64,000 nt of DNA from Alphaproteobacteria bacterium (GTDB lineage: Bacteria > Pseudomonadota > Alphaproteobacteria > JAJUGE01): NCBI GenBank assembly GCA_029268305.1, contig JAJUGE010000002.1, positions 1 to 64,000 on the forward strand, given 5' to 3'. Position 1 is the stretch's first letter. Every line of letters starts with the position of its first letter. Made by a program: the position numbers and the translations under genes. Shown here piece after piece: positions 2,528 through 14,818 of this stretch. Below the pieces are notes generated by a model that saw nothing but the letters and a program-made list of their open reading frames with translations, ran no database searches and had not been told where the DNA came from.

Positions 2528-2629
2528 ACATCACACCGAAAGCCCAGTTGTCCGCCGAGAGCCGCTTCTCCAGGAACGGATAAGGCATCCGACTGTTGCC
2601 GTGGCATTCCAATAGCGATGGAGAGCGGG

Positions 2630-4159
2630 ATGGATACGGCGATTCAGGAGTTTCGCTCGTTCTGGACCGCGACGGCCAAGGAGACGCCGCCGACATATCC
2701 GGCCCTTCGCTCCGACCTCCAGGTCGATGTGGCGATCGTGGGGGGCGGCATCGTCGGTCTCACCGCGGCAGAGATGCTGAGACGCGCGGGGCGGAGCGTA
2801 GCCGTTCTGGAGGCGCGGCGGGTCGGACAGCAGGTCACCGGGCGATCCACCGCGAAGGTGACGTCGCAGCACGGGCTGATTTACGACCGCCTGATCCGCG
2901 ACTTCGGAGAAGATGGGGCGCGGATCTACGGCGAAGCGAACGAGCAGGCGATCGGGCGGATCGAAGAGTTCGTCGCAGAACTCGACCTCGATTGCGATCT
3001 CGCCCGGGCTTCAGCTTATGTGTATGCGGCAACGCCCGCCGAGCTTCCACAGATCCAGCGGGAGGTAGAGGCGGCACTACGGCTCGGCCTTCCCGCCGCA
3101 TACGTGGATCAACTGCCGCTGCCCTTCGCGACCGCGGGTGGCATCCGCTTCGACGGGCAGGCGCAGTTCCAGCCGTACGACTACACGCTCGGTCTCGCTC
3201 GCTCGGTGGCGAGTGCCGGAAGGATCTTCGAGCACACCCGTGTGACCGCCATCGAGGACGACGAGCCCTGTGTCGTGCGGACGGAGGCGGGAGCGACGGT
3301 GACTGCCAAAGACGTCATCGTCGCCACTCATATACCGATCGGTAAGATCGGCCTGTTCTTTGCCAAGGCCTTCCCATACGCGCATCCGGTCATCGCGGCG
3401 AGGGTGAACGCCGACCGCATCCTCGACGGCATGTTCATCAGTGCGGGTTTACCGAGTCACTCGGTACGGTTCGCTCGGCACGGCGGCCAGAACTACGTCA
3501 TCGCCGCGGGCGACAGTTACAAGCCGGGGCACACAGACGAACAGTCACGGGCATTCGCGGATCTCGACCGCTTCCTGCAGGATGCGTTCGGCGTGACGGC
3601 GACGGAGTACCGCTGGACGAACGAAGACTTCGACGCGATGGACGGAGTGCCGTTCATCGGCCGCAGCCCGGGGAGCGGGCACCAATTCGTCGCGACCGGC
3701 TTCAATGCCTGGGGAATTACCGGAGGCACAGTGGCCGGGATACTTCTGGCCGATCTGATTGCCGGCCAGACGAACCCTTGGGCCGAGCTCTTCAATGCGG
3801 GTCGCGCGAAACCCGTGGCCGGTGGGCCTTCCTTCCTCAAGGAGAACATGCACGCCGCACAGCATCTCATGAGCGAGCGCATCCTGAAAAGGCGTCCCGA
3901 CGCGTCTGGCGCCATAGGTCCGGGGGAGGGGGCTATCATCGAACTGGATGGCAAGCAGGTCGCCGTGCATCGGGATACCGAAGGCAGGTTGCATGCCGTT
4001 TCGGCAATCTGCACGCATCTGGGTTGTGTCGTTGGCTGGAACGGGGTCGATCGCACCTGGGACTGCTCCTGCCACGGGTCACGTTTCGGTCTGGACGGCA
4101 GCGTGATCCACGGGCCGGCCGTATCGCCGCTGGAGAAGAAGTCGCTTCCCGCCGAATAA
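2630..4159 (+). CDS. FAD-dependent oxidoreductase with C-terminal Rieske [2Fe-2S] domain
   Basis: About 509 aa. The N-terminus has a dinucleotide-binding fold (VAIVGGGIVGLTAAEMLRRAG, about residues 34-54) typical of DAO/glycine-oxidase-like flavoenzymes. The last 100 residues form a Rieske domain with C461-x-H463 and C479-x2-H482 (CTHLGC and CSCHGSRF). This FAD-Rieske architecture is widespread, but the substrate is usually unknown. The Rieske centre would pass electrons from the flavin to an acceptor. The start at 2630 is preferred over the in-frame ATG at 2618 because GGAGAG lies four bases upstream of it. The ABM-domain gene follows after 33 bases and is probably co-transcribed. No signal peptide is seen, so it is cytoplasmic. 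Confidence 0.88.
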   Translation: MDTAIQEFRSFWTATAKETPPTYPALRSDLQVDVAIVGGGIVGLTAAEMLRRAGRSVAVLEARRVGQQVTGRSTAKVTSQHGLIYDRLIRDFGEDGARIYGEANEQAIGRIEEFVAELDLDCDLARASAYVYAATPAELPQIQREVEAALRLGLPAAYVDQLPLPFATAGGIRFDGQAQFQPYDYTLGLARSVASAGRIFEHTRVTAIEDDEPCVVRTEAGATVTAKDVIVATHIPIGKIGLFFAKAFPYAHPVIAARVNADRILDGMFISAGLPSHSVRFARHGGQNYVIAAGDSYKPGHTDEQSRAFADLDRFLQDAFGVTATEYRWTNEDFDAMDGVPFIGRSPGSGHQFVATGFNAWGITGGTVAGILLADLIAGQTNPWAELFNAGRAKPVAGGPSFLKENMHAAQHLMSERILKRRPDASGAIGPGEGAIIELDGKQVAVHRDTEGRLHAVSAICTHLGCVVGWNGVDRTWDCSCHGSRFGLDGSVIHGPAVSPLEKKSLPAE

Positions 4160-4516: not shown

Positions 4517-5266
4517 TCAGATCGCGAGATACTGCCGACGCAGATCTGCGTTCTCCAGCACCTCCCGGGCGCCGCCCGTGTAGGCGACGGTGCCCATGTC
4601 TAGAATGACCGCACTGTCGGCGAGCTCCAGTGCGGCCAGGGCGTTCTGCTCGACGATGATCGTGGTGATGCCGAGCCGCTTCACCTCCTCCAGGATCGAC
4701 TCTATCTCCCGCACGATCTGAGGGGCCAGCCCCTCATAAGGTTCGTCCAGGAGAAGAAGCTTCACGTCGCGGGCGAGCGCACGGGCAACCGCGAGCATCT
4801 GTTGCTCACCCCCCGACATCGTGGTCGCTTCCTGCCGGCGACGCTCGGCAAGCCGCGGGAAGTGCTCGTATATCTGCTCGATCGGCCAGCCCGGACGCTC
4901 CGCCACCTGTGCCACGATAAGATTTTCCTCGACCGAGATGCCGGGGATGATCCGCCGGTCCTCCGGAACGAGTTGCACGCCGGCGCGCGCGGCGCGATGC
5001 GCCTGCATGCGGTGGAGTGGCTGACCGGCGAGGATGATCTCCCCCTGCCGCAGGGCCGGATGCGCCGCGCGTGCGATGGTGCGCAGGGTGGATGTCTTGC
5101 CGGCGCCGTTACGTCCGAGCAGGGCGACGATCTGCTTCTCTCGGATCGCGAAGTCGACGCCCTGCACGATATAGCTCTCGCCGTAGTAGGCGTGAACATT
5201 GCGGCACACGAAGAACGGGGCAGCTTGGTCGGCTCCGGTCATCGGGGCGGCAGCTGGCTGCGTCAT
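4517..5266 (-). CDS. livF: LIV-type ABC transporter ATP-binding protein LivF
   Basis: 249 aa. Walker A LLGRNGAGKTSTL, the signature MSGGEQQ and Walker B LLLLDEPYEGL are all present. The length and the C-terminal IVEQNALAALELAD segment match LivF. The start ATG overlaps the livG stop (ATGA), so it is translationally coupled as the last gene of livK-H-M-G-F. It is a cytoplasmic ATPase subunit that powers uptake through LivHM. The true substrate could be a branched-chain amino acid, amide, or aliphatic or aromatic acid; the five genes alone do not settle it. Confidence 0.92.
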   Translation of the reverse strand: MTQPAAAPMTGADQAAPFFVCRNVHAYYGESYIVQGVDFAIREKQIVALLGRNGAGKTSTLRTIARAAHPALRQGEIILAGQPLHRMQAHRAARAGVQLVPEDRRIIPGISVEENLIVAQVAERPGWPIEQIYEHFPRLAERRRQEATTMSGGEQQMLAVARALARDVKLLLLDEPYEGLAPQIVREIESILEEVKRLGITTIIVEQNALAALELADSAVILDMGTVAYTGGAREVLENADLRRQYLAI

Positions 5267-6030
5267 TGCCGGTGCGCTCCACCGAGGTAGGCTTCCTGAA
5301 CGCGCGGATTGGCGCGGACCTCTTCCGGCCGCCCCTCGGCGATCACCGTTCCCTGAGCGAGGACCGAGATCCTGTCAGAGAGCGAGAAGACGACGTGCAT
5401 GTCGTGCTCGATCACGATCTTCGTCATGCCCTTGCGGGAGAGATGCTTCAGGAGATCGATGGTGCGGTTGGTGTCGTGACGCGACATACCTGCCGTCGGC
5501 TCGTCGAGAAGCAGCAGTCGTGGACGGGCAGCGAGGCAAAGTGCCAGTTCCAGACGGCGCTTGTCGCCTCGGGAGAGATGCTGGGCTTCGTAATCCAGCC
5601 AGTCAGCGAGGCCGACCTCCCGCAGATGCTCGGCCGCTTCGTCCATGATCGGGTGGCCCGGGCCGAGCGACTCGAGCACGCGAAGCCCGAACTGCCCGTC
5701 GCGGCGCGCGAGCGCGGCGATCGCCACGTTCTCGACCAGCGACAGACCGGGAAATATCTGCGGCGTCTGAAAGACGCGGGCGATGCCCTTCTGGATGATC
5801 GTGTGCGGGGAGAGGCCTTTCAATTCTTCGCCAGCATAGAAGATGGCACCATGGTCAGCCTGCACGAGGCCGATCAGGACATTCAGAAGCGTCGATTTTC
5901 CGGCGCCGTTCGGACCGATGATGGCGTGAATAGAGCCTTCCTCGACGCTCAGGTTCACGTCGTTGAGGGCGCGGAGGCCGCCGAAGTTCTTGGAGACGCC
6001 GCGGATCTCGAGGATTTTCGAGCTTGGCAT
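5263..6030 (-). CDS. livG: LIV-type ABC transporter ATP-binding protein LivG
   Basis: 255 aa, starting at the ATG at 6030 (MPSSKILEIRGVSKNFGG). The same frame stays open upstream, but that is the shadow of livM. Walker A IIGPNGAGKSTLLNVL and Walker B LLLLDEPTAGMS are present; the signature region reads LSRGDKRRLELA rather than LSGGQ, a known LivG-type variation. A long insertion after Walker A, usual in LivG, is also seen. Its stop overlaps the livF start by 4 bases, and livM ends 17 bases upstream. It pairs with LivF as the ATPase dimer. Confidence 0.92.
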   Translation of the reverse strand: MPSSKILEIRGVSKNFGGLRALNDVNLSVEEGSIHAIIGPNGAGKSTLLNVLIGLVQADHGAIFYAGEELKGLSPHTIIQKGIARVFQTPQIFPGLSLVENVAIAALARRDGQFGLRVLESLGPGHPIMDEAAEHLREVGLADWLDYEAQHLSRGDKRRLELALCLAARPRLLLLDEPTAGMSRHDTNRTIDLLKHLSRKGMTKIVIEHDMHVVFSLSDRISVLAQGTVIAEGRPEEVRANPRVQEAYLGGAHRQ

Positions 6031-6047
6031 GTCGGATCTCCGCGGCC

Positions 6048-7160
6048 CTATTCCTGTTGCTCGCGATCGATTCGCCGCCGCCGTCGGTCCTCGTCCGCAG
6101 CGGGAGCCATGTCGGGAACGTTGTGTCGCCTGGCGCGAACCTTGTGGCCCAAGGTACGGCCCAGGCGCCGACCGAGATCGGCGAAGCCGCCGGGCAGGAA
6201 GATGACGATCGCCACGAAGATGATGCCGAGGACGAGCTTCCACTGTTCGCCGATGAAGGCCTGCACCACGTTCTCGAAATAGAGCATGAACGTGGCACCG
6301 ATCATCGGCCCGATGAGCGTGCCGACTCCGCCGATCACCGACATGATCACCACTTCGCCGGAGGTCGACCAGTGGATGTACTTCGTCGCGACGTAGGGCT
6401 CGTAGATCACCATCAGAGAGCCGGCGACGCCTGCGTAAATCGCGCTGATGACGAAGCCGGCGATCTTGTAGGCGAACACGTTCACGCCCGTGTATTCGAG
6501 CCGCATCGGATTTTCCTTCACCGACCGCAGGATCAATCCGAAGGGCGAGCGGCGGATGATGAGTGCGATGAAGAAGGCGACGATCAGGATTGCCGCCGCG
6601 AAGTAGAACATCGTCAGGCCATGCATCCGCATTCCGAGCAGTGTCGGGGATGGGAGGCCCGTCAGCCCGTTGTCGCCTCCGGTCCACTGCTGCAGGGTCG
6701 ACGAAAGCACTAGCGCGTGCGCCATTTCGGCGAATGCCAGGGTGAGGATCGAGAAGTAGATGCCGGTGCGGCGCAGAGTGACAACACCCAGCAGGAACGA
6801 GATCACGAGCAGGCAGGCGAACGAAAGGGCCATCGCCGGGATGATGTCCGGACCGAGATGCTTCAGCGAAAGGCCGGTGATGTAGGCGGCGGAGCCGAAG
6901 AAGGCTGCGTGACCGAACGAGAGGTAACCGGTGAAGCCCAGCAGGATGTCGAAGCCGAGCGCGAATATCGCCCAGATGACGATTTTGGTGGCCAGCGCCT
7001 CGTAGCCCGCGATCCAGACCAGCCACCACGGCATCGTCAGGACCGCCACCACGAACACGGCGAGCATGATGAAGTCGCCCCGGCGTAGCCGCACTTGCAG
7101 CCCCTTCGACCGATTCCCCACGACGGGCGCAGCGAGAGTGGTTTCTGCCGCATCGCTCAT
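6048..7160 (-). CDS. livM: LIV-type ABC transporter permease LivM
   Basis: 370 aa integral membrane protein with about ten hydrophobic segments. The diagnostic LivM stretch GFDILLGFTGYLSFGHAAFF is near residue 70, and VVIMSVIGGVGTLIGPMIGA is in the second half. The C-terminus is a charged cytoplasmic tail rich in Arg. Its start (7160) overlaps the livH stop (7157-7159), so the two permeases are translationally coupled. It forms the inner-membrane channel with LivH. Confidence 0.93.
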   Translation of the reverse strand: MSDAAETTLAAPVVGNRSKGLQVRLRRGDFIMLAVFVVAVLTMPWWLVWIAGYEALATKIVIWAIFALGFDILLGFTGYLSFGHAAFFGSAAYITGLSLKHLGPDIIPAMALSFACLLVISFLLGVVTLRRTGIYFSILTLAFAEMAHALVLSSTLQQWTGGDNGLTGLPSPTLLGMRMHGLTMFYFAAAILIVAFFIALIIRRSPFGLILRSVKENPMRLEYTGVNVFAYKIAGFVISAIYAGVAGSLMVIYEPYVATKYIHWSTSGEVVIMSVIGGVGTLIGPMIGATFMLYFENVVQAFIGEQWKLVLGIIFVAIVIFLPGGFADLGRRLGRTLGHKVRARRHNVPDMAPAADEDRRRRRIDREQQE

Positions 7161-8131
7161 TCGAACACCCCCTTCGTGCCGAACAGACCACGCGGGCGGA
7201 TCAGAAGCACGACGACGGCGACGAGATAGACCACGATCTGCTGCAGTGCCGTCAGCACGGTCTTCATTGTCGGGTCGCCTATCGCAGCGGCGAAACCGGT
7301 CGTGAAGCTGAGTGCCATGCCGAGCATGAGCGCGGCTATCAGGGCGCCGATCATGGAGCCCATGCCTCCGATCACGACAACCAGGAACGACGGTACAAGC
7401 AGCGCCATGCCGACGGTCGGCGAGACCTGGGTTATCGGTCCGCCGAAGACGCCGGCGATGCCGGCGATCAGGGCGCCGATGCCGAACACGATCGAGAAGC
7501 GCGCCGAGATGTTGACGCCGAGAAAGCGGACGATCTCGGCGTCACGCATTCCCGCTCGGACCACGAGCCCGAAGCGGGTGAACTGCAGCAAAGCGAAAAT
7601 GGCGAGGATCGTCACCGCGGTCACGATGATCAGCAGGAGGCGCCACGCCGGGAAGAACGAGAAGCCCTCAAGGAAGGGCATGGGTATGCGAATGCCGGGA
7701 ATCGCGTCCGGCACGACCGCCCCGGCGCCATAGAAGAGGACCTGTCCTGCACCCCAGCTCGGTAGTGCGAAGGGAATGTTGTTGGCGCCGAACATCCACT
7801 TCAGCGCCTCCTCGACGACGATGGCGACGCCGAACGTGACTAGGATCTGGTCCGTATGAGGTCGGGAATAGAAGAACTGGATCAGGCCGCGTTCCAGCGC
7901 GAGCCCGATCAGGAAGAGGATGATGGGCACGAGGAGGATGGCCCAGCCGAACCCCACACTGCCGGCGAGGAAGACCGCAAAATAGGCGGCGATCAGATAG
8001 AGCGCGCCATGGGCGAAGTTCACGACACCGAGCGTGCCGAAGATGAGGGTGAGGCCGAGCGCAATCAGCGCATAGATCGCGCCGAGCTGCAGCCCGGTCA
8101 GCATCATCAGGAAGATGCTGTTTATGGTCAT
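7157..8131 (-). CDS. livH: LIV-type ABC transporter permease LivH
   Basis: 324 aa membrane protein beginning at the ATG at 8131 (MTINSIFLMMLTGLQLGAIY). The same frame runs on to 8371, but the extension is arginine-rich and uncharacteristic. LivH hallmarks are GTLGVVNFAHGALYLIAAY near residue 45 and FLVVVIGGMGSMIGALIAAL in the last third. It pairs with LivM. It follows livK by 65 bases and overlaps livM by 4. Confidence 0.92.
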   Translation of the reverse strand: MTINSIFLMMLTGLQLGAIYALIALGLTLIFGTLGVVNFAHGALYLIAAYFAVFLAGSVGFGWAILLVPIILFLIGLALERGLIQFFYSRPHTDQILVTFGVAIVVEEALKWMFGANNIPFALPSWGAGQVLFYGAGAVVPDAIPGIRIPMPFLEGFSFFPAWRLLLIIVTAVTILAIFALLQFTRFGLVVRAGMRDAEIVRFLGVNISARFSIVFGIGALIAGIAGVFGGPITQVSPTVGMALLVPSFLVVVIGGMGSMIGALIAALMLGMALSFTTGFAAAIGDPTMKTVLTALQQIVVYLVAVVVLLIRPRGLFGTKGVFE

Positions 8132-8196
8132 CCTGCCCCCGCGACGATCATTGACAAGCGGGTGGAGCGCGGCATTGCACGCTCCGCCCAATGATG

Positions 8197-9570
8197 TCAG
8201 GCAGTCGGCTCGTAGGGACCGAGATCCGCCTCCGGGCCCCCGAATGCGGGCAGGTCCTCCGGATAGGTCACCTCCTCGCGCGGCACATGCTTGACGATCT
8301 CGAGCAGGTCGTACTCGTCTTGCCGTGCCGAAGGGGCCTTGCCTTCCACCACGAGAATATCGTGGAAGCATTGATGATCTTCGGCGCGATAGAGAGCGGT
8401 TCCCGGCCCGATGCCGTCGACTTCGAGGCCTTCCAGTGCCTTGATCACTTCCGGCGGATAGAAGGTGCCGGACTGCTCCACGGCGTTCGCATAGAGGAGC
8501 GTCTGCACATAGGCCGTATGGGCGGCCTGGGAGGGCGGGCGGCCATGTTCCTCCATGAAGGCCTTGATGAAGACCTGCGAACCGGGATCGTCCAGCTTCT
8601 CATTGAAGTTGGCCGTCCCGAGAACGCCTTCGATATTGTCGCCGGCACCCTGCGCCATCAGCTCCGAATAGAGTGGCACGACTACCTCGATCTGCTTGCC
8701 GTTCTTCTGCATGTCACGCATGCCGAACTGCACCGCCTGCGTCAGCGAATTGATCATGTCCTTGCCGTAGTGGTTCAGGATCAGCACGTCGGCGTCCGAA
8801 TTGATCGCGGCGGTGAGGAACTGCGAGAAGTCGGTGGCGCCCAGCGGCGTCATGATGTTGTTGACGGTGGTCCAGCCCTGCTTCTCGGTCGCCTCCTTGA
8901 TCGATTCGTACTGCGTGTGTCCCCAGGTGTAATCGGCGGTGAGATGATAGGCGCGCCGGTCCTTGCCGTAACGCTCGGCGATGATCGGTCCGAGGGCGAT
9001 GCCGGACATGTAGGCGTTGAAGAAATGCCGGAAGCCGTAGCGGCGCCGGTCCTTGCCGGTGGTGTCGTTCGAATGCGTCAGCGCATCCATGAAGATGACG
9101 CCCTTTTCCTGGGCGAGATACTGCTGCGCCACGGCCACGGCAGAAGACGAACCACCGGAGAACATGATGACCCCGTCACGTTCGATCGCACGCTGGGCCG
9201 CCTGACGCGCGGCATCTGGGTTGGTCTGGGTGTCTCCGGAGACATACTCGATCTTCTTCCCGAGCACGCCGTTGCCCTTGAGGCTCAGCGGCTTGATCGT
9301 CTCCAGCATGCCGCCGCCCTCGTTGAGGTGCTTCACGGCGAGTTGGTAGGCGCGCAATTCGTCGGCGCCTTCGTCCGCGTACGCGCCGGTCTGGGGGACG
9401 ATGAAACCGAACTTCACCGTCGATCCCTCGGTACGGGCAGGAAAGTTGCCGATCGCCTTCTGTGCCCAGGCGTTGCGGATGAAATGCATCGGGGCGGCGA
9501 GGGCGATGGACCCGGCTGCCCCAGCTCGCAAAATGCCGCGACGGCTGATTCCCTTTTCGGTGATCTTCAT
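8197..9570 (-). CDS. livK: LIV-type ABC transporter periplasmic substrate-binding protein
   Basis: 457 aa from the ATG at 9570, chosen because GGGAGGA lies 8-14 bases upstream; an earlier in-frame ATG at 9624 lacks such a site. The N-terminus SRRGILRAGAAGSIAL looks like a twin-arginine signal peptide with cleavage near AWA-QK. The mature protein is a Leu/Ile/Val-binding (periplasmic binding type 1) fold with VKFGFIVPQTGAYADEG and FSGGSSSAVAVAQQYL. Export of a binding protein by Tat is uncommon and suggests folding before export. It is the first gene of the five-gene transporter operon; the substrate is not identifiable from sequence. Confidence 0.88.
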   Translation of the reverse strand: MKITEKGISRRGILRAGAAGSIALAAPMHFIRNAWAQKAIGNFPARTEGSTVKFGFIVPQTGAYADEGADELRAYQLAVKHLNEGGGMLETIKPLSLKGNGVLGKKIEYVSGDTQTNPDAARQAAQRAIERDGVIMFSGGSSSAVAVAQQYLAQEKGVIFMDALTHSNDTTGKDRRRYGFRHFFNAYMSGIALGPIIAERYGKDRRAYHLTADYTWGHTQYESIKEATEKQGWTTVNNIMTPLGATDFSQFLTAAINSDADVLILNHYGKDMINSLTQAVQFGMRDMQKNGKQIEVVVPLYSELMAQGAGDNIEGVLGTANFNEKLDDPGSQVFIKAFMEEHGRPPSQAAHTAYVQTLLYANAVEQSGTFYPPEVIKALEGLEVDGIGPGTALYRAEDHQCFHDILVVEGKAPSARQDEYDLLEIVKHVPREEVTYPEDLPAFGGPEADLGPYEPTA

Positions 9571-9694
9571 CTGGCTGTCCTCCCGGGGGTTTCTTGTTTT
9601 CCGCTCCGGCATCTGCCCCCGCACCGACGCCGAAAGGAGACGAAGGGGGTTCAGAGTAAATTTCTCAGGTGTGGCTGACTATAAGCTATTGGAT

Positions 9695-9714
9695 TTCAGT
9701 GATATTTCTGTGAA
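9695..9714. promoter_or_regulatory. Candidate operator dyad between livK and the XRE regulator
   Basis: The AT-rich intergenic region (9571-9747) contains TTCAGTGATATTTCTGTGAA, an imperfect dyad matching at 7 of 10 positions. It lies about 34 bases upstream of the regulator start and 125 bases upstream of livK, so the regulator could act on both divergent units. Inference only. Confidence 0.3.
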
Positions 9715-9747
9715 GAATTAGCTGAAAACCCTTTGGACGTGTAAAGC

Positions 9748-11319
9748 TTGTCAATCGTTCGACGAACCGGCCGCCGACCAACCCCGCCCGCCGGCTTGCG
9801 ACTGCGGCAGCGGCGCCGTGCGCTCGGCGTCACCCAAGCGGGACTGGCGAGCCGGGTCGGCATCTCGGCGAGCTACCTGAACCTGATCGAGCACGGAAAG
9901 CGCGAGGTGGGCGGGAGCCTTCTCCGCCGGCTGGCGGAGGCGCTCGGGACGGAAGTCGGCGCACTCACGGGCCGGGAGGAGGTGGTCCTCGTCGAAGAGC
10001 TCGCCGAGTTCGTAACCGACCCGGTGTTTGGGGGCCTTGCACTCGAACCAGCCGACGCTCAGGAGATCGTGGCGAGGCAGCCAGACTGGGCGCGCGCCAT
10101 GATCCGGCTGCGCCGTCACTACAGCGCCGCTGCGAGGCTGGCCGAGACGTTGTCGCAACGCCTCGCACATGACGCCACGCTCGTCCAGGCGAGCCACGAA
10201 CTCCTGACCCGCCTCACCACCGTCCGCTCGTTCGCCGAGATCCTGCGGGAGCACGAGGACGTGGAGCCGGAGCGGCGGACCCGCTTCATTCAGCAGATCG
10301 CCGAGGAGGGCGCGCGGCTCGGTGACGTGGCGAAATCGGTGTTCGAGCGGCTCAGCGATTTCGACGAGAGCTTGCGACCTTCGACGCCGGCCGAAGAAGT
10401 CGATGACTTCCTCGTCGGGCACGCGCACCACTTTCCGGCGCTCGAGCACGCGGCAGAACCTTTCGGCGAGCGTTTGCGGACTACCGGAAGTGACTACGAA
10501 GGCATGCTGATCGAGCGCCTGGTCGGGCGACATGGCGTCCGGATCGGGACGATCGACGACGCTGCACCGTGGCGTCCGACCTTCGACCCTGTAGCCCGTG
10601 AACTGCGGCTGCCGATAGGCCTCGCTGCGGAGAGCCGGCGGTTCGAACTGGCCCGGCTGGTGTTCGCACTGGAACATGGTGACGTCATCTCCGCGTTCGC
10701 CGAAGATCCGCGGCTGACGACGGCCGCCGCCCGAGAGCGGGCGCGCGAGGTTCTCTCCAACTACGGCGCCGGCGCGCTTCTGCTTCCATACGAGCACTTC
10801 CGGTCGGCAGCTGAGGCAGGGCGTTACGATATCGAGCGGCTTTGCGCGCTGTTCGACGCCAGCACCGAACAGGTTTGCCATCGCCTGGTGACGCTTCGGC
10901 GGCCGGGCGCCGAGGGTGTGCCGTTCGCATTCCTGCGCGTCGACCCGGCAGGCAACATTTCCAAGCGGTTTGGTCTGCCTGGCCTCCGGCTGCCTCGTTT
11001 CGGCGGAGTTTGTCCTCTCTGGGCGGTTTATCGAAGCTTCCAGTCGCCCGGCACGATTCTAGCCCAGCGCGTGCGCCTGCCGGACGGGCGCGAGTTCCTT
11101 CTGGTGGCCCGCGCCGTACTGAAGCCGCCGCGCTCATTCGGTGCCGTCTCCCAGACGTTCAGCATCATGATCGCCTGTGACGCCATGGATGCTTCGTCGA
11201 CCGTCTATGGGGATGCCGCAGCGGCCACGCCGACGCTGGAGTCCGGCATCAATTGCCATCTCTGCCCACGAGAGCATTGTGCCCAACGTGCCTTTCCGCA
11301 GGTCCTGCCGGGAAGCTAG
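9748..11319 (+). CDS. XRE-family regulator (ScfR/RamB-like, DUF2083) carrying a HisKA-like segment
   Basis: 523 aa with a TTG start. Residues about 16-75 form an XRE helix-turn-helix (TQAGLASRVGISASYLNLIE). Residues about 140-205 (H150 in SHELLTRLTTVRSFAEIL) strongly resemble a histidine-kinase dimerisation/phosphoacceptor helix pair. Next comes an ImmA/IrrE-like region (about 270-340) in which the HExxH zinc site is absent: the equivalent stretch reads RRFELARLVFALEHG. The C-terminal DUF2083-type region ends in a cysteine cluster CHLCPREHC. Relatives regulate short-chain acyl-CoA, glyoxylate or propionate metabolism. It lies divergent from the LIV operon and upstream of a response regulator and a histidine kinase, so it is probably the DNA-binding output of that module (inference). 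Confidence 0.82.
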   Translation: MSIVRRTGRRPTPPAGLRLRQRRRALGVTQAGLASRVGISASYLNLIEHGKREVGGSLLRRLAEALGTEVGALTGREEVVLVEELAEFVTDPVFGGLALEPADAQEIVARQPDWARAMIRLRRHYSAAARLAETLSQRLAHDATLVQASHELLTRLTTVRSFAEILREHEDVEPERRTRFIQQIAEEGARLGDVAKSVFERLSDFDESLRPSTPAEEVDDFLVGHAHHFPALEHAAEPFGERLRTTGSDYEGMLIERLVGRHGVRIGTIDDAAPWRPTFDPVARELRLPIGLAAESRRFELARLVFALEHGDVISAFAEDPRLTTAAARERAREVLSNYGAGALLLPYEHFRSAAEAGRYDIERLCALFDASTEQVCHRLVTLRRPGAEGVPFAFLRVDPAGNISKRFGLPGLRLPRFGGVCPLWAVYRSFQSPGTILAQRVRLPDGREFLLVARAVLKPPRSFGAVSQTFSIMIACDAMDASSTVYGDAAAATPTLESGINCHLCPREHCAQRAFPQVLPGS

Positions 11320-11405
11320 GTGGCGCTGTTCCTCCGTACCGGATCAGCCTAAGATCGGGGCCCGTCAGAATGCCGCGTCAAGCCGGCGAGCGGGGGAGGA
11401 CGTCA

Positions 11406-11804
11406 GTGCGCCCACTGGTGCTGATCGCGGAAGACGAGCCGAACATCGTCGAGTCGCTGACCTTTCTGGTCGAGCGGGCAGGCTTTGCCGTGGTCAGCGT
11501 CAAGGACGGGGCGACGGCCTTGCAGAGCATCCAGAACCTCCGTCCGGCCCTCGTCGTGCTGGACGTGATGCTGCCGACTGTGAACGGCTTCGAGGTTCTC
11601 CAAGCGGTGAAGGGCACTCCCGATCTGAAAGACATTCCGATCCTCGTCCTCACGGCACGGGGGCAGGAAGTGGACCGGCAGCGGGCGGAGAGCCTCGGCG
11701 CTGATGCCTTCATCACGAAGCCGTTCTCGAACCGGGACGTAGTGCAACGCGTCTGCGAGCTGTCGGGCGGTGCTCCGGAACCGGAGCGTGGAGACGCCCG
11801 GTGA
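11406..11804 (+). CDS. Single-domain response regulator (REC only)
   Basis: 132 aa from a GTG at 11406, preceded by GGGGGAGGA ending five bases upstream; a longer in-frame ATG at 11370 lacks this site. All receiver residues are present: E9/D10 acidic pocket, D53 phospho-acceptor (VVLDVMLP), T83 and K105 (ITKPF). There is no output domain, so it either relays phosphate or acts by protein contact. It lies between an XRE regulator with a HisKA-like segment and a symporter-kinase; its stop overlaps the next GTG start. Family knowledge: REC-only proteins often shuttle phosphate between histidine domains. Confidence 0.92.
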   Translation: MRPLVLIAEDEPNIVESLTFLVERAGFAVVSVKDGATALQSIQNLRPALVVLDVMLPTVNGFEVLQAVKGTPDLKDIPILVLTARGQEVDRQRAESLGADAFITKPFSNRDVVQRVCELSGGAPEPERGDAR

Positions 11805-12064: not shown

Positions 12065-14818
12065 GTGCTGACCTCCGGCTTCGTCCTCACGCTCGCCGGG
12101 GGCTATCTGGCTCTGCTCTTCGTCCTCGCCTTCGTCACGGATCGCATGGCGGCGCGAGGGCGTGCGGGCCTCATCAGCTCGCCCATCGTCTACACGCTGT
12201 CGCTCACCGTCTATTGCACGTCGTGGACCTTCTTCGGGGCGGTCGGATCGGCTGCGCGCAATGGGCCGGAGTTCGCGACCATCTATCTCGGCCCGACCCT
12301 GGTCTTCGTCGGTGCATGGTTCCTGCTTCGCAAGCTGGTCCGGATCTCGAAGACGCACCGCATCACGTCGATCGCCGACTTCATCTCCTCGCGGTACGGA
12401 AAGAGCACGCGGATCGCGGCGATCGTGGCCTTGATCGCCGTCGCGTCGACCACTCCCTACATCGCGCTGCAGCTCAAGGCGGTGGCGACGAGCCTCGACA
12501 CGTTGACGATCGGGCGTTCCGTCCTGACTGCGGAAGCGCAGGGGCTTTTCGACGACACCGCGTTCTGGGTGGCGGCCTCGATGGCGGCATTCGTGATCAT
12601 CTTCGGCACCCGCAACATCGGCGCGGACGAGCACCATCCGGGGGTGGTTGCTGCCATCGCCTTCGAGTCGCTGGTGAAGCTTGCGGCGTTCATCGCCGTC
12701 GGCCTCTTCGTCGTGCTCGGGCTGAAGGCGACGGGCGCGGAGTATGCCGGGCCGCTCTGGCTCGACCCGATGCTCCGTGAAACGCCCCCCTTCCAGGCCA
12801 GCGATCCGGCCCGGTGGACCGCCATGCTGTTTCTCTCCGCGGCGGCGATCGTCTGCCTGCCGCGGCAGTTTCAGGTGACGATCGTGGAGGTTACCGACGA
12901 GCGTCACCTCAAGACGGCGAGTTGGCTATTCCCGCTGTACATGCTGCTGATGAGCCTTTTCACGGTGCCGATCGCCGTCGCCGGCCTCGGCCTGGTCGGC
13001 GATGGTGCGAACCCGGACCTGTTCGTCCTGACGGTGCCCATGAGCGTGGGCGAAGAGTGGCTGGCACTGGCGGCCTTCATCGGCGGGTTCTCGTCCGCGA
13101 CTTCGATGGTGATCGTTGCCTGCATCGCGCTGTCGATCATGATCTCCAACCACATCGTCATGCCGCTCCTGCTGCGCAGCCCTTGGCTGCGGTTGCACGA
13201 GATGAGCGACCTGACCGGTCTGCTGCTCGCGGTGCGGCGCCTCTCGATCGTTCTGATCCTGTCGCTGGGCTTCATCTACTATCGTGTAAGCGCCCACTCC
13301 GACGCCCTGGCGGCGATTGGCCTCATTTCTTTCGTCGGTGCGGCGCAGTTCCTCCCGGCGATGGTCGGCGGCGTCTACTGGCGGGGAGGAACCGAACGCG
13401 GCGCCACCGCGGGGTTGATCGCCGGGTTCGTGGTGTGGACCTACACGCTGCTGCTTCCCAGCATCGTTCGGGTCGGCGGCGCGGCGACCGGATTGCTCAC
13501 GGAAGGGCCGTTTGGCCTCGGTTTCCTGCGGCCGGAAGCGCTATTCCATCTCGACCGGTGGGATCCGCTCGTCCATGCCCTGTTCTGGACCCTGACGGCG
13601 AACGTGGTCGCGTATGTCGCGGTGTCGTTGGTCTCGACCCTGAAGCCGCTGGAGCAGTTGCAGGGCTCTCTGTTCGTTGACGCCTTCCGCCGCCGGCCCT
13701 TCGCGGACGCGTCGCGCGCCTGGTCTGGAGACACCGCTGTCGAGGACCTGATGGCGCTCGCGCGGCGGATCATCGGTCGCGACCATGCCTACCGGGCGTT
13801 TCGTGATTATGCGCGGAGCATGGGTCGTGACGTGCGCGAGCTGGTCGCCGACGCTGCCTTGATCTCATTCGTCGAACGACAGCTGGCTGGCTCGATCGGC
13901 GCAGCCTCCGCGCGCGTGCTCGTTCTACGGATCGCCGGTGGCGAGACGATCAGCCTCGACGAAGTCATCACCATCCTCGACGAGACGCAGCAGGCGATCG
14001 AGTATGGCCGCCAGCTCGAGCAGAAGTCGGCCGAGCTGGAGGCGACGGCCGAACAGCTGCGGCGCGCCAACACTCAGCTCAAGCAAATCGACACGATGAA
14101 AGACGACTTCCTGAACCGGGTCAGCCATGAACTCCGGACACCGATGACTTCGATCCGCTCGTTCGCAGAGGTGCTGCTGGAGGAGGAGGGGCTGACGCAG
14201 GAGGATCGGGAGCGCTTCGTCGGCATCATCCACCAGGAATCGCTACGGCTGACACGCCTGCTGGACGAGATTCTTGACCTCAACCGAATGGATGCCGGGG
14301 ATTTGGACTTGCGGCTCGTCCGGCTCGATCCGGCCACGACCCTTCACGAGTCGGTGGCGGCGATGGCCGGCTTCGCGCACCAGCGCGGAGTGACGTTGGA
14401 AGATGCGGTTCCGGCAAAGCTGCCGGAAGTGATCGCGGATGCCGATCGGCTGAAACAGGTGCTGATCAACCTGATCCACAACGCGATCAAGTTTAACGAT
14501 GCGAGAGAGCCCGAAGTGCGCGTGTCGGCGGAGGTGTCCGGCAGGGAGGTCGTGCTGTCGGTTTCGGACAATGGGCCGGGCGTTCCCGCCGCCGATCAGA
14601 CCGTGCTGTTCAGAAAGCTCCCGCGGCGGGGCGGCGAACGCGAAGGCAGCGGCCTTGGCCTCGCGATCTGCAGGCAGATCGTCGAAGCCCATCGTGGCCG
14701 TATAGAGCTTCGGCCGGGGGTGGGGAAGGGAGCTCGTTTCGAGGTCGTGCTGCCGCAGGCGACCACAAAGAACGAGGCCTCGTCCCTCCCGGCGGCCGTC
14801 GCTTCCGCAGGGTCCTGA
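12065..14818 (+). CDS. Sodium:solute symporter (SSS)-histidine kinase fusion
   Basis: 917 aa, GTG start after a GGGAGAGG site. Residues 1 to about 530 form an SLC5/SSS transporter-like domain with about 13 membrane segments (opening GGYLALLFVLAFVTDRMA). A linker and coiled coil (about 640-680, EQKSAELEATAEQLRRA) lead to HisKA with H688 in VSHELRTPMTSIRSF. The HATPase has an N box (NLIHNAIKFND), G1 DNGPGVP (about 834) and G2 GSGLGLAICR (about 861). The architecture matches the CbrA/CrbS type, in which the transporter part senses or moves a metabolite such as an amino acid or acetate. Expected role: inner-membrane sensor phosphorylating the adjacent REC protein. The ligand cannot be read from sequence. 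Confidence 0.93.
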   Translation: MLTSGFVLTLAGGYLALLFVLAFVTDRMAARGRAGLISSPIVYTLSLTVYCTSWTFFGAVGSAARNGPEFATIYLGPTLVFVGAWFLLRKLVRISKTHRITSIADFISSRYGKSTRIAAIVALIAVASTTPYIALQLKAVATSLDTLTIGRSVLTAEAQGLFDDTAFWVAASMAAFVIIFGTRNIGADEHHPGVVAAIAFESLVKLAAFIAVGLFVVLGLKATGAEYAGPLWLDPMLRETPPFQASDPARWTAMLFLSAAAIVCLPRQFQVTIVEVTDERHLKTASWLFPLYMLLMSLFTVPIAVAGLGLVGDGANPDLFVLTVPMSVGEEWLALAAFIGGFSSATSMVIVACIALSIMISNHIVMPLLLRSPWLRLHEMSDLTGLLLAVRRLSIVLILSLGFIYYRVSAHSDALAAIGLISFVGAAQFLPAMVGGVYWRGGTERGATAGLIAGFVVWTYTLLLPSIVRVGGAATGLLTEGPFGLGFLRPEALFHLDRWDPLVHALFWTLTANVVAYVAVSLVSTLKPLEQLQGSLFVDAFRRRPFADASRAWSGDTAVEDLMALARRIIGRDHAYRAFRDYARSMGRDVRELVADAALISFVERQLAGSIGAASARVLVLRIAGGETISLDEVITILDETQQAIEYGRQLEQKSAELEATAEQLRRANTQLKQIDTMKDDFLNRVSHELRTPMTSIRSFAEVLLEEEGLTQEDRERFVGIIHQESLRLTRLLDEILDLNRMDAGDLDLRLVRLDPATTLHESVAAMAGFAHQRGVTLEDAVPAKLPEVIADADRLKQVLINLIHNAIKFNDAREPEVRVSAEVSGREVVLSVSDNGPGVPAADQTVLFRKLPRRGGEREGSGLGLAICRQIVEAHRGRIELRPGVGKGARFEVVLPQATTKNEASSLPAAVASAGS

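Follow-up and report, generated by a model that had tools for sequence, protein, structure and literature searches.

In two-component systems, the output is normally a phosphorylated aspartate, located in a receiver domain that is fused to a DNA-binding domain. The DHp-type phosphotransferases ChpT, Spo0B and PhyT possess a HisKA-like hairpin without a working kinase and pass the phosphate on to a second receiver (REC), and in the PTS-regulated PRD transcription factors a histidine is phosphorylated by HPr/EII; the PRDs are unrelated to HisKA. In the CrbS/R, RpuS/R and CbrA/B systems, which control the transport or the use of carbon sources, an SSS-type transporter domain is fused to a histidine kinase (the SLC5/STAC kinases), and the partner in CrbS/R and RpuS/R is a response regulator of the LuxR family (PMC9100948). 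The regulators of the ScfR family (RamB, PrpR/MccR, PccR) combine an HTH domain with M78/IrrE-like and ScfRs domains and with the cysteines of a 4Fe-4S cluster; the region that follows the HTH domain is invisible in the crystals of PrpR (PMC6765138), and Paracoccus RamB uses two boxes of nearly the same sequence, separated by a spacer of 18 bp (PMC10370305). Pden_1785 has been noted briefly as being linked to a two-component system (PMC10370305); a HisKA segment in ScfR regulators is not described in the openly available literature that we have searched.

Here, we have analysed a stretch of 64,000 nucleotides of alphaproteobacterial DNA (the window), in which a regulator of the ScfR family carries a HisKA/DHp-like insert and is followed by the genes of a stand-alone REC protein and of an SSS-type histidine kinase (Table 1). 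An earlier note on this DNA had pointed to a HisKA-like segment with a phospho-acceptor histidine in an XRE-type regulator, and had tied this segment to the two downstream genes. Judged from their sequences, the insert-bearing ScfRs are a conserved class with a single origin on the ScfR tree, and we lean slightly towards a phosphorelay that would run from the kinase through the REC protein to H150 and end on the DNA-binding protein. Elsewhere in the window (positions 2618-4159), a FAD-dependent (DAO) oxidoreductase carries a fused Rieske [2Fe-2S] domain at its C-terminus.

Table 1. Positions of the features of the locus, numbered from the first letter of the window.
Feature	Position	Strand	Remarks
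HAAT-type ABC transporter operon (Peripla_BP_6 binding protein, LivH, LivM, LivG, LivF)	4517..9624	-	Divergent; probable target
ATTTACAAAA-type candidate operator box	9705..9720	-	12.8 bits; in divergent promoter
Possible second box, degenerate, CTTTACACG	9736..9751	-	31 bp away; weak, 3.2 bits only
ScfR-family regulator with HisKA/DHp-like insert	9748..11319	+	523 aa, TTG start; Pfam domains, PrpR homology
HTH_3 DNA-binding domain, regulator residues 19-70	9802..9957	+	Pfam
HisKA/DHp-like insert, regulator residues ~140-205	10165..10362	+	Pfam, family profile; absent from ordinary ScfRs
H150 codon, phospho-acceptor equivalent	10195..10197	+	H in 42/45 REC-linked homologues
M78/IrrE-like and ScfRs C-terminal part, regulator residues 278-519	10579..11304	+	Pfam; holds C422, C503, C506, C511
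Stand-alone REC protein, no output domain	11371..11804	+	Pfam Response_reg; ORF from TTG 11253; start ~ATG 11371 or GTG 11403
SSS/SLC5-type histidine kinase, 917 aa, HisKA with H688, HATPase_c	12065..14818	+	Pfam

Without its insert, the regulator is a ScfR of the PrpR/RamB type, homologous to M. tuberculosis PrpR (E 3e-55): Pfam recognises HTH_3 (E 1.5e-11), M78/IrrE at residues 278-380 (50.4 bits) and ScfRs at residues 382-519 (160 bits), and a structural search matches the ScfR core with PrpR. C422, C503, C506 and C511, i.e. a single C and a CX2CX4C pattern, are equivalent to the 4Fe-4S ligands of PrpR (PMC6765138), and 71 of the 72 insert-bearing homologues retain them; the XRE-type HTH domain, the M78/IrrE-like and ScfRs domains and the full ligand set all place the regulator in the ScfR family (PF09856). 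By its homology to PrpR, it may also bind CoA esters. The insert is located between the region after the HTH domain and the ligand-binding part.

The insert, which comprises ~65 residues that ordinary ScfRs do not have, is homologous to HisKA domains. The alignment between regulator and kinase that the earlier note had drawn is reproduced by BLASTP (34/95 identities, E 3e-10, regulator 141-228 against kinase 679-773), with H150 and H688 at the residues it had named; this pair has a raw local score of 107, twice the highest value that 2000 shuffles reached (54). The Pfam HisKA model (PF00512) aligns to residues 148-194, with 24.4 bits for the whole regulator (E 3e-5), just under the cut-off of 26.9, with 28.1 bits for the insert segment alone and with 28.2 bits in a scan of the regulator's own genome, above the cut-off; the NCBIfam kinase models PnpS, PhoR and CreC align to the same stretch. 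In the opposite direction, a profile built from 26 insert-bearing homologues finds the DHp domain of Thermotoga HK853 over 89 positions, which span the full hairpin (3dge/2c2a/5uht, E ~2.6e-5), and the homology that is thus seen both ways supports the relay. The HMM search that had been proposed as a check has therefore returned both a Pfam match and a family-profile match, and with the BLASTP alignment these confirm the HisKA-like segment. Chance resemblance, which we have also considered, is ruled out by the shuffles, the HMM and the family profile. The domain search found no HATPase domain in the regulator, as had been stated before.

At E 0.01, Pfam HisKA matches 11 of 26 H-bearing members, 5 of 7 H-less members and none of 22 short-form members; the last count agrees with the earlier statement that ScfRs normally lack HisKA, whereas the low count among the H-bearing members speaks against the relay. 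So do the monomer models, which do not establish a DHp fold: the AlphaFold models, built from two or three sequences, are of low confidence (pLDDT 58 for the full-length regulator and 65 for the segment), with helices predicted at residues 143-167 and 174-203 of the insert (mean pLDDT 58-65). With the low-confidence segment model, Foldseek ranked a chain of HK853 first, but at E 0.47, and the 50 best rows of VIA-align were unrelated helical bundles, without any kinase; no fold match was significant.

Searches of 968 genomes have provided the insert-bearing regulators, 72 in total, of which one (L002) comes from another collection, and 23 insert-less control loci. Within this sample, insert-bearing ScfRs occur only in Alphaproteobacteria, and the other classes of the phylum have the short form only. 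In a tree computed from the columns outside the insert, the presence of the insert maps to one change (support 96) and the loss of the histidine to three. Among the 24 HisKA kinases of its own genome, the SSS-kinase of the operon is the closest to the insert (42.7 bits, the next one reaching 29.6), which fits the capture of the domain from the partner, or convergence of the two on one REC protein; in the preferred reading, a ScfR regulator took up the DHp domain of a sensor kinase, most likely that of the SSS-kinase of its own operon.

By its architecture, an SSS transporter domain fused to HisKA-HATPase, the partner kinase resembles the SLC5/STAC kinases, and over residues 8-475 it matches 10ed_A, a histidine kinase chain of known structure (E 5e-69). 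In spite of this match, Pfam SSF does not recognise the transporter half (12065-13500) even at E 1, so that scans based on families would miss it. The active site of the REC protein (acidic pair, Asp, T/S, Lys) is kept in 33 of 33 trios.

For the neighbourhoods, we have used 39 insert-bearing loci, with flanks of several kb wherever the contig was long enough. REC and SSS-kinase genes lie nearby in 28 of these 39 loci and in none of the 23 short-form loci, normally in the order regulator-REC-kinase; the p value of 5e-9 is uncorrected for kinship and describes an association in the sample, not independent events. The co-occurrence that the earlier note had suggested examining is thereby found, and an entire cluster is carried by the Neorhizobium plasmid NZ_CP025513.1. 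Since the REC protein has no output domain, the DNA-binding step must lie elsewhere.

The residues of 32 complete regulator-REC-kinase trios have been compared. In HisKA kinases, E+1, R+3 and P+5 of the HExRTP box serve autophosphorylation. The partner kinases have this box invariant (E, R, T and P in 32/32), whereas the regulators have E+1 in 5/32 and R+3 in 1/32, with P+5 absent from the common states; thus, the H-E/D-x-R/K-T-P box of autophosphorylating kinases is mostly absent from the insert-bearing regulators, the regulator of the window itself having E151. The histidine is present in all 32 regulators, as are T/S/N+4 and I+15, together with R+10 (29/32), S+11 (29/32) and E+14 (31/32); RSxxEIL, F+30, S+38 and L+41 are retained. 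An acceptor histidine that is kept while the residues of autophosphorylation are lost is the pattern expected of a phosphotransfer domain that is fed by a REC protein.

This pattern also bears on how the phosphate could reach H150. The regulator's DHp could pair directly with the DHp of the SSS-kinase, whose ATPase domain would then phosphorylate H150, as the resemblance of the insert to the operon kinase above any other kinase of the genome might suggest; we regard such a heterodimer as most improbable, since the loss of the kinase-invariant E+1, R+3 and P+5 in most regulators argues against phosphorylation by the ATPase part of the kinase, the kinase sits in the membrane, there would be nothing for the conserved REC to do, and no additional correlation is seen between the kinase DHp and the insert (0.08, p 0.11). 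With E+1, R+3 and P+5 mostly lost and H and T/S/N+4 retained, the residue pattern favours transfer from the REC protein to H150 over such a heterodimer. The distances of the kinase DHp and the REC protein are correlated (0.25, p 0.002), and the partial distance correlation between insert and REC, given the rest, is -0.08 (not significant), i.e. no REC-specific signal, which counts against the relay.

The retained T/S/N+4 (32/32) also gives the insert, with its H, some resemblance to the HExxT phosphatase motif, and the insert could strip REC~P as a phosphatase or phosphate sink, the regulator resetting the signal instead of receiving it. We consider this improbable: the regulators do not retain the acid at +1, the operon would offer the REC protein no other known output, and the strict conservation of the histidine would be unexplained, since the phosphatase activity of HisKA kinases survives the loss of the histidine (PMC7005713). 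The column of H150 (0.41 bits) is among the most conserved, and its neighbour at +1 is free (2.81 bits).

Where a REC gene is linked, 42 of 45 homologues have the equivalent of H150; where none is, 4 of 27 have it (72 in total). Most of the H-less rows come from one genus, so that this count is inflated. Non-conservation of H150 in homologues of the same neighbourhood was to have spoken against the earlier claim, and the count stands in its favour; the HMM matches, the single origin of the insert, the gene linkage and the conservation of H150 together uphold the tie of the segment to REC and SSS-kinase. Two of the three losses fall in lineages where the regulator does not adjoin the REC and kinase genes; in a tree-based test of independent pairs of His loss against REC linkage, significance is out of reach with three losses, and the tracking of His loss with the absence of a linked REC gene is suggestive. 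The H-less genomes that we have checked still encode a kinase-REC pair elsewhere. All members seen of one genus (L078, L079, L082, L086 and L195-L210) have Phe for His and retain the insert, with the REC-kinase pair ~8-10 kb from the regulator in the four genomes checked. L192 and L193, the one clear exception, have Tyr for His in spite of an adjacent REC gene.

Two features of these lineages count against the relay, Tyr in L192/L193, where REC adjoins, and the insert that is kept without its histidine and must have some role without it. The main rival of the relay is docking without transfer, in which the DHp-like insert would bind the REC protein, phosphorylated or not, as an allosteric partner, with H150 facing the REC active site: the RSxxEI surface and T+4 are retained with REC linkage, the insert survives the loss of the histidine where the lineage still encodes REC and SSS-kinase, and L192/L193 retain their adjacent REC with Tyr. 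We find docking alone unlikely, as the conservation of H150 next to a free +1 position exceeds the needs of a docking surface. The same losses could mean that the insert is a structural remnant, which merely adds a dimerising helical hairpin and does not signal, as genus g43, family f117, L088 and L192/L193 still carry the insert although they have lost the histidine; the conservation of the histidine and the linkage to REC and kinase in nearly all the other lineages make this very improbable.

On the other side of the regulator, a divergent HAAT-type ABC transporter faces 34 of 39 insert-bearing regulators and none of the 23 controls (kinship ignored); the transporter of the window has only a weak resemblance to urea transporters (73 bits for the binding protein, cut-off 495). 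In L075 and L077, the insert-bearing regulator faces, by eye, a divergent gene of an SSS-type symporter of ~655 aa, not an ABC transporter, so that a transporter appears to be the target in both arrangements. The upstream regions of 33 related loci share a motif (consensus nAnAnATTTACAAAAn); at >= 9 bits, it has 97 sites, where shuffles give 6.8. Most commonly, two ATTTACAAAA boxes occur in the same direction, 32 bp apart, a spacing that fits the ScfR two-box site with its 18-bp spacer (PMC10370305) and makes them candidate ScfR operators. TTTACA resembles a -35 element, and a part of the motif signal may be promoter. The divergent ABC transporter operon is the probable target of the regulator.

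From the homology, architecture, linkage, residue conservation and promoter motif that we have observed, we infer each phosphoryl transfer of the preferred relay and its direction, as well as the nature of the solute, the target and the consequence for DNA binding. The SSS-kinase would sense or transport a small, carboxylate-like solute and autophosphorylate on H688; the phosphoryl group would pass to the Asp of the stand-alone REC protein, which would dock on the DHp-like helix hairpin of the regulator and hand the group to H150; the phosphate on H150 and the CoA/Fe-S state of the ScfR core would then jointly alter the binding to the paired boxes before the ABC operon. That such a His-Asp-His relay, from a transporter-kinase through a lone receiver to a phosphohistidine on a DNA-binding protein that may respond to CoA esters and an Fe-S cluster as well, is spread through the Alphaproteobacteria has, in our estimate, an even chance. 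A metabolite-sensing transcription factor appears to be wired into a kinase through domain capture, and the predicted substrate-uptake circuit of SSS-kinase, REC protein, regulator and ABC transporter is testable in culturable species.

Compared with the known systems, the insert-bearing regulator combines known kinds, a ScfR regulator, a DHp module and a SLC5 kinase. It shares with ChpT, Spo0B and PhyT a HisKA-like element, here a predicted hairpin, without a working kinase and proposed to take its phosphate from a REC protein; those proteins are relay intermediates, whereas here the element lies inside a transcription factor, in which no ATPase-like part was found. With the PRD regulators it would share the phosphorylation of a histidine on a regulator that binds nucleic acid, but the phosphate comes from HPr/EII there, on domains unrelated to HisKA. 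The kinase, and the control of carbon-source transport or use, recall CrbS/R, RpuS/R and CbrA/B; unlike the LuxR-family regulators CrbR and RpuR, a bare REC protein and a separate, HisKA-bearing ScfR are found here. The domains, the Fe-S cysteines and the two-box operator with its ~18-bp spacer are those of the ScfR family, the ordinary members of which have neither HisKA (0/22) nor linkage to REC and SSS-kinase (0/23). For Pden_1785, the likeness concerns the two-component linkage, and the relay would give gene clusters of that kind (PMC10370305) a possible function. With a bare receiver and the histidine module on the DNA-binding protein, the relay, if true, would reverse the usual output through a phosphorylated aspartate.
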